Shown piece after piece: positions 59,334-62,450 of a stretch of 64,000 nt of DNA (positions are counted from its first letter, which is position 1; every line of letters starts with the position of its first letter). The position numbers and the translations under genes are program-made. The DNA comes from Streptomyces sp. TN58 (lineage in GTDB: Bacteria; Actinomycetota; Actinomycetes; Streptomycetales; Streptomycetaceae): contig NZ_CP018870.1 in assembly GCF_001941845.1 (NCBI RefSeq), positions 2,971,501 to 3,035,500 of the forward strand. The letters are read 5' to 3'. The notes under the pieces are model-generated. The model saw only the letters and a list, made by a program, of their open reading frames with translations. It searched no databases and was not told where the DNA came from.

Positions 59334-59724
59334 CAGGGCGCATGGCGCCGCTCCATCAGAGCGGCGCTCTCGTCCGGCCGGATGGTGCGAGACAGGACCG
59401 CCCTTGTCCCGACATGTACGGTCTTTCGGGCGCGGAGCTCCCGTCAATCACAGGTGGAGAGTCGCCTTGTCGGCACAATCACAGGGCGTGATATCGGCTT
59501 CCCCTGTACGATGAAGGCACAACAGATCGAACCAACTCTGCCTGACGCAGAGCTGGCGCGACCGCAAAGCGGCCGTGGCCCCCGCAGTGGGCGCCCAGGT
59601 ATCACTCGGTTATGCGCAAGAGGACAGCTCTCGGGGCTCCCAACACGTACGGGTGCGACCGCTCACAAAGCACGGCACCGTCCGCAGACGGGGATGCTCT
59701 ACCAGGCAGCGGAAAGGCAAGGCC
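59334..59724 (+). other. Long leader region of the MFS gene
   Basis: This is about 390 bases without a convincing gene. It contains a possible 15-codon leader ORF (TTG at 59467 with GGTGGAG upstream, ending TGA at 59512-59514), TACGAT (59507-59512), a CTCTGC-CTGAC-GCAGAG hairpin near 59536-59552, and further GC stems. This could be an attenuation-type 5' leader, which would be inference. Confidence 0.35.
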
Positions 59725-61158
59725 GTGACATCCGCGGTCACGTCCGACAAGTCCGCCCGCCCCGGCTACGGGCAGCTCCTGCGCACGCCGGGCGCCCTCG
59801 GCTTCGTACTCCCCGGCTTCGCCGCCCGGCTCCCCTTCGGCATGCTGACCATCAGCATCCTGCTGCTGGTGCAGCACACCACCGGTTCCTACGGCAGCGC
59901 CGGCATCGTCGCCGCCGTCACCGGCATCTCGATGGCCCTCTCCGCCCCGCTGATGGGCATCTTCACCGACCGGTACGGCCAGAGCGCCGTGCTGGTGCCC
60001 GTGGTCCTCGCGCACGCCGCCGCCGTCACCGGCCTCGCCGCCCTGGCCCTGGCCGACGCGCACGTCTGGGTCCTGGCGCTGGCCGCGGTCCCGGCCGGCG
60101 CCTCGGTGCCGCAGGTCGGCCCGATGGTCCGCGCACGCTGGGCGGCCCGGCTTGAGGGCTCGCCGCTGCTGCCGACGGCCGCCGCCTTCGAGTCCGTCAC
60201 CGACGAGTTCACCTTCGTCGTCGGCCCGGTCCTCGCGACCGCGCTGTGCACCGGCGTCCACCCGGCGGCCGGCCTGGTCACCGAGGCCACGCTGACCCTG
60301 CTCGGCGGCCTGCTCTTCGCGGCCCGGCGGGCCTCCCAGCCCACGACGCACGCCCCGTCGGCCACCGGCGAGAAGCGCGCCTTCGCTCTCTCCCACCCGG
60401 GGCTGCGCGTCCTGATTTTCGCCTTCCTCGGGATCGGCGCCGTCTTCGGCGGCATGCAGGTCTCGCTCGCCGCCTTCTCCAACGAGATCGGCAACCCCGG
60501 CGCCAACGGCCTGCTCTACGGCGTCTTCGCGGCCGGCAACATGATCGCGGGCATCGCCATGGGCGCCGTCGCGTGGAAGATCGGCCCGCGCCGCCGGCTG
60601 GTCCTGGGCTACGCCGGCCTCACCGCCGCCGCGTCCGTCCTGTGGGCGGCGAACTCGGTGATCCTGCTGGGCGCGCTCGGCCTGGTCGTCGGCCTGTTCA
60701 TCGCCCCCGCCCTGATCACCGGCTACACGATGGTCGAGCAGCTGGTCCCCGCGAACGCCCGGACCGAGGCCTTCACCTGGCTGACCGGTTCGATCGCCTT
60801 CGGTCAGGCCATCGCGGTCATCCTGGCCGGCCGGCTGACCGACGCGCACGGGGCCTCGTACGGCTTCCTGGTGCCGATGGCGGCCACCGCGCTGGCGCTG
60901 GCGACGCTGCTGGCGCTGCGGGCGAAGCTGGCCCCGAAGCCCGCGAAGGCCCCGAGCCGGATCGTGAACGCGTCGGCGTCCGCGCCCGCGCCCGCTTCCG
61001 CGCCTGGTGTCGCGCCCGGTGTCTCGTCTGCTGTCGCGCCCGGTGCCGAGGCCGCCGGACCGGCCGCCGTGAGGCCGGCCGCCGCCCCCTCGCAGGCCCC
61101 CCGTAACCGGGTGAACGAGCGTGGGATGGGTCACCGCGTGCCGGTGACGGTGGACTGA
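59725..61158 (+). CDS. MFS-family transporter
   Basis: This 477-residue protein has twelve predicted helices in two sets, with the loop 2-3 motif LMGIFTDRYGQSAVL and a cytoplasmic middle loop around residue 205-225. A disordered Ala/Pro-rich tail (about 405-477) ends the protein. The pattern is that of drug-efflux type MFS proteins without a recognisable substrate. The GTG at 59725 (VTSAVTSDKSARPG) has GGAAAGG seven bases upstream. A long leader precedes it. Confidence 0.87.
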   Translation: MTSAVTSDKSARPGYGQLLRTPGALGFVLPGFAARLPFGMLTISILLLVQHTTGSYGSAGIVAAVTGISMALSAPLMGIFTDRYGQSAVLVPVVLAHAAAVTGLAALALADAHVWVLALAAVPAGASVPQVGPMVRARWAARLEGSPLLPTAAAFESVTDEFTFVVGPVLATALCTGVHPAAGLVTEATLTLLGGLLFAARRASQPTTHAPSATGEKRAFALSHPGLRVLIFAFLGIGAVFGGMQVSLAAFSNEIGNPGANGLLYGVFAAGNMIAGIAMGAVAWKIGPRRRLVLGYAGLTAAASVLWAANSVILLGALGLVVGLFIAPALITGYTMVEQLVPANARTEAFTWLTGSIAFGQAIAVILAGRLTDAHGASYGFLVPMAATALALATLLALRAKLAPKPAKAPSRIVNASASAPAPASAPGVAPGVSSAVAPGAEAAGPAAVRPAAAPSQAPRNRVNERGMGHRVPVTVD

Positions 61159-61188
61159 TCCGCCGGAATACGTCACCATGGAGCGTCG

Positions 61189-61215
61189 TTAGCACTCATT
61201 GAGTGAGAGTGCCAG
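61189..61215. promoter_or_regulatory. CIRCE-like element (HrcA operator)
   Basis: TTAGCACTC (61189-61197), nine bases, then GAGTGCCAG (61207-61215). The left arm matches the general CIRCE consensus exactly. The right arm matches the GAGTGCCAG form seen at Streptomyces groE genes. The arms pair at seven of nine positions. The right arm runs into the AGGAGGA ribosome site of the next gene, so HrcA binding would cover the leader. Confidence 0.72.
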
Positions 61216-61225
61216 GAGGAAATTC

Positions 61226-61540
61226 GTGCCGACCTACCAGTACCAGTGCACCGAGTGCGGTGAGGGCCTTGAGGCCGTGCAGAAGTTCACCGATGACGCG
61301 CTGACCGTGTGCCCGAACTGCGACGGACGCCTGAAGAAGGTGTTCTCCGCGGTCGGCATCGTCTTCAAGGGCTCCGGTTTCTACCGGAACGACAGCCGTG
61401 GCGCCTCGTCGAGCAGCACCCCCGCCTCGAAGCCCGCCGGCTCGTCGTCGTCCTCGACGTCGACCGCCGCCGCCGCTCCCGCCGCCTCGTCCTCCTCGAC
61501 GTCGTCGAGCACGAGCAGCAGCTCCACGTCGGCCGCCTGA
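61226..61540 (+). CDS. FmdB-family zinc-ribbon regulatory protein
   Basis: This 104-residue protein begins PTYQYQCTECGEGLEAVQKF and has the second knuckle CPNCDG and then LKKVFSAVGIVFKGSGFYRND, all hallmarks of FmdB/CxxC_CXXC_SSSS proteins. The last 45 residues are almost only Ser, Thr, Ala and Pro. The GTG at 61226 has AGGAGGA. The gene lies behind a CIRCE-like element, which suggests HrcA control. Function of the family in bacteria is poorly known. Confidence 0.9.
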   Translation: MPTYQYQCTECGEGLEAVQKFTDDALTVCPNCDGRLKKVFSAVGIVFKGSGFYRNDSRGASSSSTPASKPAGSSSSSTSTAAAAPAASSSSTSSSTSSSSTSAA

Positions 61541-61603: not shown

Positions 61604-61619
61604 TAGGGTGAGCGGCATG
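61604..61619 (+). promoter_or_regulatory. -10 element and leaderless start of mtnP
   Basis: TAGGGT (61604-61609) is seven bases before the ATG at 61617, with no ribosome site. Confidence 0.45.
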
Positions 61620-62450
61620 GTGAACGCAGAGATCGGTGTCATCGGCGGCTCGGGCTTCTACTCCTTCCTGGAGGACGTCTCCGAGATCCAGGTGGAGACC
61701 CCGTACGGGCCTCCGAGCGACTCCCTGTACGTGGGTGAGCTGGGCGGCCGCTCGGTGGCCTTCCTGCCCCGGCACGGGCGCAGCCACACGGTCCCTCCAC
61801 ACAAGATCAACTACCGGGCGAACCTCTGGGCCCTGCGCTCGGTCGGTGTCCGCCAGGTGCTGGGCCCGTGCGCGGTCGGCGGCCTGCGAGCCGAGTACGG
61901 GCCGGGCACGCTGCTCGTTCCCGACCAGCTGGTCGACCGTACGAAGTCCCGCGCGCAGACCTTCTTCGACGGGGAGGCGCTGCCGGACGGTTCCATGCCG
62001 AACGTCGTGCACACCACCTTCGCCGACCCCTACTGCCCGGTGGGCCGGTCCGTGGCGGTGGCCGCGGCGCGCGGGCGGGGCTGGGAGCCGGTCGACGGCG
62101 GCACGATGGTCGTCGTCGAGGGGCCCCGCTTCTCGACCCGGGCGGAGTCGCGGTGGCACGCGGCGGCGGGCTGGTCGGTGGTCGGCATGACGGGGCACCC
62201 GGAGGCGGTCCTCGCCCGTGAGCTGGGGCTCTGCTACACCTCGATGGCGCTGGTCACGGACCTGGACGCGGGGGCCGAGACCGGGGAGGGCGTCTCCCAC
62301 ACGGAGGTGCTGAAGGTGTTCGGCGAGAACGTCGGCCGCCTTCGCGAAGTCCTTTTCGACGCGGTGGCGGCGCTGCCGCCCACGCAGTCCCGCGACTGCC
62401 TGTGCACGCACGCGCACGACGGCTGGGACCTGGGCATCGAGCTTCCGTAG
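61617..62450 (+). CDS. mtnP: S-methyl-5'-thioadenosine phosphorylase
   Basis: This 277-residue purine-nucleoside phosphorylase-type enzyme splits MTA, a polyamine and quorum-compound by-product, into adenine and methylthioribose-1-phosphate. It has GVIGGSGFYSFL, FLPRHGRSHTVPPHKINYRANLWAL (in part), MVVVEGPRFSTRAES, VGMTGHPEAVLARELG and YTSMALVTDLDAG. It is of the MTAP/MTIP subgroup. The ATG at 61617 follows a -10 by seven bases. Confidence 0.94.
   Translation: MVNAEIGVIGGSGFYSFLEDVSEIQVETPYGPPSDSLYVGELGGRSVAFLPRHGRSHTVPPHKINYRANLWALRSVGVRQVLGPCAVGGLRAEYGPGTLLVPDQLVDRTKSRAQTFFDGEALPDGSMPNVVHTTFADPYCPVGRSVAVAAARGRGWEPVDGGTMVVVEGPRFSTRAESRWHAAAGWSVVGMTGHPEAVLARELGLCYTSMALVTDLDAGAETGEGVSHTEVLKVFGENVGRLREVLFDAVAALPPTQSRDCLCTHAHDGWDLGIELP

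Follow-up and report, generated by a model that had tools for sequence, protein, structure and literature searches.

Within the window, which is the whole stretch of 64,000 nucleotides (64 kb) that was analysed, the inverted repeat at 61189-61215 is probably the HrcA operator of a Streptomyces ruc gene, and HrcA and the sigma factor sigmaR would act on this gene at one site. Based on the conserved sequences around the gene, we place the probability of this reading at roughly 80%. Sequence comparison makes the gene itself (61226-61540) the orthologue of Rv0991c (Ruc) from Mycobacterium tuberculosis. A 2020 study described Ruc as a chaperone under redox regulation, with HrcA as its repressor and SigH as the sigma factor that drives its expression (PMC7448276). 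The first-pass annotation had suggested that the gene encodes a new heat-shock or protein-quality factor. This suggestion fails, since the gene is a Ruc orthologue with the reported promoter-operator layout and is therefore of a known kind.

Gene, predicted operator and candidate promoters in the window

The box at 61189-61215 reads TTAGCACTC ATTGAGTGA GAGTGCCAG and matches the CIRCE consensus TTAGCACTC-N9-GAGTGCTAA at 16 of the 18 arm bases, with a spacer of exactly 9 bases. Both mismatches are confined to the outer part of the right arm (TAA to CAG). No other site in the 64-kb window has three or fewer mismatches to this consensus, and such a site was present in none of 100 dinucleotide shuffles of the window. 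The CIRCE-like element that had been noted before the gene is thus borne out; the exact CIRCE layout of arms and spacer that was claimed for it is correct, and the sequence of the right arm departs from the consensus. On the forward strand, as are the candidate promoters and ruc itself, the predicted operator TTAGCACTC-N9-GAGTGCCAG is followed by the Shine-Dalgarno-like sequence AGGAGG (61214-61219), which is conserved in the genus and whose first two bases are the last two of the right arm, and ten bases separate the end of the box from the GTG start codon at 61226. Within the 9-base spacer (61198-61206), GAGT is kept in 92 of 98 genomes of the genus, giving an extra half-site-like arrangement, GAGTGA-GAGTGC, which an ordinary CIRCE does not need. 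GAGTGA also occurs in the spacer of one of the two groEL boxes in the same genome (L003, G000:C1:3332130-3332156).

The gene runs from the GTG codon to a stop codon at 61538-61540 and encodes a protein of 104 amino acids. As had been noted, it belongs to the FmdB-type zinc ribbons, with matches to Pfam Zn_ribbon_8 (PF09723) and to NCBIfam TIGR02605 ('FmdB family zinc ribbon protein'). Two CxxC pairs, Cys 8, 11, 29 and 32, are present in the N-terminal zinc ribbon, and 24 of the 49 residues of the tail are serine. The M. tuberculosis Ruc mutants are named C8S C11S and C29S C32S (PMC7448276), so the residue numbers of the cysteines coincide in the two proteins. In addition, the stretches of Ruc that can be read from the primers in that paper share PTY-Y, DDALT, GRL-K-F and AVG-VFKG with the protein in the window. 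The four cysteines and FKG-GFY are kept in twelve proteins sampled across the phylum, within this genus as well as in other classes. A structure model of the protein is weak (mean pLDDT of 56.9), with strands at residues 3-8, 14-18 and 35-39 and a tail without secondary structure, and it is no more than consistent with this orthology. Downstream of ruc lies a gene for a phosphorylase-superfamily enzyme (61617-62450, PF01048), which is probably S-methyl-5'-thioadenosine phosphorylase.

Directly upstream of the gene, GGAAT (61165-61169) and GTT (61188-61190), separated by 18 bases, exactly match the sigmaR promoter consensus GGAAT-N18-19-GTT (PMC9205884), and the GTT shares two bases with the HrcA box. 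Joined into one motif, GGAAY-N18-GTTNGCACTC, the two elements are found at a single place in the genome, and the reversed control has no match. A second arrangement, TGGACT (61151-61156)-N17-CACCAT (61174-61179), lies in a conserved block and could, from its sequence, be a promoter of the housekeeping type. Every base of TGGACT is kept in at least 93 of the 98 genomes of the genus, and the consensus of the second hexamer, CACTAT, is kept less strictly. The upstream gene, an MFS transporter gene (59674-61158, PF07690), ends inside this promoter region with its stop codon at 61156-61158, and the -35 part of the housekeeping-type promoter overlaps its 3' end. The conserved GTGGACTGA block represents the last codons of this MFS gene. 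The range given in the first-pass annotation, 61189 to 61540, includes the box and the gene, and since it starts at the box, it leaves out the promoter region at 61151-61190. In terms of regulation, the HrcA box was seen there and the sigmaR-type promoter merged with it was missed.

Distribution of the box in the genome, genus and phylum

In the genome of 7,585,034 bases, the pattern GCACTC-N9-GAGTGC is found at six sites, compared with one for the reversed control pattern. The same six are the only sites in the genome with three or fewer mismatches to the full box (reversed control, one). They precede hrcA (one box), a gene for GroES/Cpn10 (two boxes), a gene for GroEL/Cpn60 (two boxes) and ruc (one box). 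The comparison with groES sites proposed earlier thus finds the same dyad and spacer length before groES, there with two boxes. No groES was seen among the open reading frames listed at the two-box GroEL/Cpn60 locus. HrcA is encoded in the same genome (PF01628, locus L001). GGAAY-N18-GTT leads directly into the box of ruc and into none of the other five. The HrcA targets reported for M. tuberculosis are groEL2, groES-groEL1, rv0991c-rv0990c and hrcA-dnaJ2 (PMC8557902), and the set of boxes in this genome agrees with that target set as reported (PMC7448276, PMC8557902).

Across the genus, 101 genomes were sampled and ruc was found in 98, all of whose upstream regions were read; the genomes without a gene match are G001 (79% complete), G050 (82%) and G032 (99%). 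Both arms of the box are identical in all 98 ruc-bearing genomes, and its start lies 35-39 nucleotides upstream of the GTG codon. Loss of the element, which would have spoken against its role, was never met in this search of Streptomyces orthologues. Boxes with at least 14 of 18 arm bases number 98 in the last 100 nucleotides before the gene versus 0 further upstream at the same loci. The sigmaR motif with a spacing of 17-19 bases is found in 96 of the 98 genomes (exceptions L037 and L077), and its N18 form has 95 copies in the last 100 nucleotides versus 0 in the 29,400 nucleotides further upstream. Among the named loci listed, at least 15 are from Streptomyces and all carry both the box and the sigmaR motif; these possibly overlap the 98 genomes and were kept out of that count. 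It is because of the conservation in 98 of 98 genomes, together with the position of the other five boxes before hrcA, groES and groEL, that the box is read as a CIRCE element and HrcA operator, and the earlier proposal to this effect is strongly supported at the level of sequence.

At the family level, the strict pattern of box plus gene start is present in 60 of 61 genomes and in 17 of 17 genera. The sigmaR motif is more varied among the 30 family loci outside the genus: 18 have the strict form, 7 have GGAAA, 1 has CGAAT and 4 have nothing similar. These last four (L271-L274) belong to one genus, and the box is present in them.

The ruc gene was found in 285 of 296 genomes of the class. For the class sample, 106 loci were taken from 105 genera other than Streptomyces, with one locus per genus and two for one of them, which covers 105 of the 107 such genera with a gene match (g82 and g103 were left out). 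A box with at least 14 of 18 arm bases lies upstream of ruc at 85 of these 106 loci, made up of 51 of 58 loci plus L129, for which the start was assigned by a looser rule, and 32 of 47 loci plus L184, in which the box lies about 170 nucleotides upstream. At one member of the class (L179), near-identical tandem box regions precede ruc, with GGCACTCGACACCCGAGAGTGCCAG occurring twice and then a further GGCACTCGA. The remaining 21 loci have no box within reach, so the link between operator and gene is not universal; they include all five genera of f25, a family with small genomes, and all three genera of f36. Loss of hrcA was considered as the cause of the missing box and rejected. The hrcA gene was found in all 22 genomes searched, namely the 21 box-less ones and G226, and ruc would therefore have left the HrcA regulon in these lineages, or never joined it. 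In two of the f25 genomes (G124 and G312), the HrcA match is partial, from about position 123 to 214 of a profile with 215 positions, and CIRCE cores are few or missing, as if HrcA were reduced in this family.

Of 396 genomes searched in the phylum, 29 have the strict box-plus-gene pattern, 12 of these belonging to the 358 that lie outside the class, and the reversed control is found in none. The sigmaR motif is rarely at the box outside the family of Streptomyces and family f4, which is taken, by inference, as Mycobacteriaceae. At four of four f4 loci (L165, L166, L177 and L178), GGAAY-N18-GTT overlaps or touches the box, the layout described for Ruc, and at a fifth (L320), the sigmaR motif lies downstream of the box start. 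The reach of the operator-gene link into most of the class members sampled and, by the strict pattern, beyond the class into 12 of 358 genomes, may be new.

A changed left arm at many ruc boxes

In 42 of the 85 class boxes of ruc (33 and 8 from two class batches, plus L184), the left arm reads GCAGTC instead of GCACTC. Catenulispora, Nonomuraea and Frankia, the further named genera among the matches listed with one locus each, also carry GCAGTC at ruc. In 30 genomes, the groES and hrcA loci were read as well. GCAGTC was present at 21 of the 30 ruc loci and at none of the 36 groES and hrcA boxes (24 and 12, respectively) of the same genomes, a contrast with a Fisher p value of 1.6e-10 when relatedness is ignored. 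Boxes were detected at 17 of 29 groES loci (L222, the thirtieth, was left out) and at 12 of 30 hrcA loci, in both cases at most 400 nucleotides from the domain start, a limit that puts some of the groES and hrcA boxes out of reach. The presence of GCAGTC at the ruc box and its absence from these 36 boxes may be new. The idea that GCAGTC is the general spelling of CIRCE in these lineages is unsupported by the 0 of 36 boxes. In G125, G324 and G331, given as examples, a GCAGTC dyad and a canonical GCACTC dyad are 34-48 bp apart, and since GCAGTC dyads lie near other dyads in several of 22 genomes, ruc is not the only place where the variant occurs.

In 30 of 33 GCAGTC boxes, a -10-like hexamer precedes the changed base by 6-7 nucleotides, a distance at which the base could serve as the purine of a transcription start site. 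The unchanged C is equally spaced, at 6 nucleotides in 10 of 13 boxes, which makes the start-site idea weak. The change may thus provide a start-site purine or a weaker half-site, and both are possible. In a wider picture, which we hold tentatively and regard as somewhat doubtful, ruc would be an ancient part of the HrcA regulon of actinobacteria that has been widely retained, with a -10 element and an operator that share bases, so that protein misfolding and thiol oxidation are read at one spot; the GCAGTC arm of many families, unseen at their own groES and hrcA boxes, would then be either a start purine or a means of derepressing ruc before the chaperonins.

Proposed control, alternatives and known systems

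HrcA binding, use of the sigmaR promoter, the start site, the combined control and the chaperone activity are what we infer from these arrangements and from Ruc. In unstressed cells, HrcA would occupy 61189-61215, covering the sigmaR -10 element up to the Shine-Dalgarno sequence, and ruc expression would be low. HrcA leaves its operators when the chaperonins are occupied by unfolded proteins; in the same way, chaperonins busy with unfolded proteins would cause HrcA to release the ruc box. Thiol oxidation would free sigmaR from its anti-sigma factor RsrA, and transcription would start from GGAAT-N18-GTT. The protein would hold zinc through its four cysteines and act as a holdase once these are oxidised, passing its clients on to the DnaK system in the manner described for Ruc (PMC7448276). 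This mode of action is carried over from Ruc by analogy.

The box could also be an HrcA operator with ruc driven by TGGACT-N17-CACCAT, in which case sigmaR would not use GGAAT-N18-GTT and heat shock would simply derepress the gene. TGGAC blocks upstream of the box are also found in other families, 40 of the 46 class boxes tallied have a -10-like hexamer whose end coincides with the box edge, and the genus of L271-L274 keeps the box without the sigmaR motif. However, the fixed place of the sigmaR motif in 96 of 98 genomes of the genus and its absence from the background count against this, as does the reported use of SigH at the M. tuberculosis gene (PMC7448276, PMC4803200), and we consider such simple derepression quite unlikely. 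A different objection accepts the operator and questions the protein, which may be a zinc ribbon with another stress-controlled task. FmdB-type zinc ribbons form a broad family, the chaperone function is transferred from a single characterised relative, and the structure model adds no support to it. On the other hand, Ruc and its relatives have the same cysteine positions, core and kind of serine-rich tail as the Streptomyces protein, and sites for the same regulators are present at the ruc genes of both organisms, which leaves a non-chaperone role unlikely.

Much less probable is that the dyad works in the mRNA, as a leader hairpin or thermosensor. The two arms could form a stem, and the Shine-Dalgarno-like sequence begins within the right arm; however, a sigmaR promoter starts transcription 5-8 nucleotides after GTT, and such a start would exclude most of the left arm from the mRNA. 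The arms are invariant in the genus and hence show no compensating changes, and the same dyad precedes hrcA, groES and groEL. All Rfam families score below their cut-offs; the two best matches, mir-3154 (E of 0.71) and Pseudomon-groES (E of 0.74), lie elsewhere. That the resemblance to CIRCE arose by chance has a negligible probability and is already refuted at the sequence level: single cores do arise by chance, as the one reversed 12-base core in the genome shows, but the conservation in the genus, the empty shuffles of the window and the 29 phylum genomes with box plus gene, against none for the reversed control, leave it no room. Operation of the box as an HrcA operator merged with a sigmaR promoter is the reading that we retain.

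No paper linking HrcA, CIRCE and FmdB was found in a limited literature search. The passages of PMC2687793 that deal with HrcA targets in Streptomyces name groES/EL1 and groEL2 without this gene, so the link between ruc and HrcA may be unrecorded in Streptomyces, though published sigmaR target lists may contain the gene. The control of Ruc would be carried from one pathogen into a harmless, genetically easy genus that allows separate changes to the box, the promoter and the gene. Why a chaperone answers both to a repressor linked to unfolded proteins and to a sigma factor of thiol stress would then be directly testable, as would any difference in tuning between the operators of ruc and of the chaperonins.

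In Streptomyces, the groES-groEL1 and groEL2 CIRCE elements have the same dyad and spacer length, in the same genome, as the ruc box, and differ in number, with two boxes at groES and two at groEL against one at ruc. The S. coelicolor sigmaR regulon is comparable through its promoter consensus, GGAAT-N18-19-GTT, with which ruc agrees exactly (PMC9205884, PMC4921905). SigR of S. coelicolor and SigH of M. tuberculosis share 72% identity (PMC4921905). Hsp33 is reported to work in a similar way to Ruc, as a zinc-cysteine switch that becomes a holdase once oxidised, and has no sequence kinship with the Ruc family (PMC7448276). Another close system is M. tuberculosis ruc itself. Its product is also a zinc ribbon with Cys 8, 11, 29 and 32, the tail may be unstructured in both proteins, SigH and HrcA sites overlap before the gene, and SigH induces it under heat stress (PMC7448276); Rv0991c also appears in a table of genes adjoining SigH binding sites (PMC4803200). 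The two genes differ in their neighbours, Rv0990c in M. tuberculosis (PMC8557902) and the phosphorylase-superfamily gene in Streptomyces, and Streptomyces is another genus, in which the proposed control is read from the sequence. They are alike in having an HrcA site that overlaps a promoter of the SigH/sigmaR type, within the same genomic set of HrcA targets.
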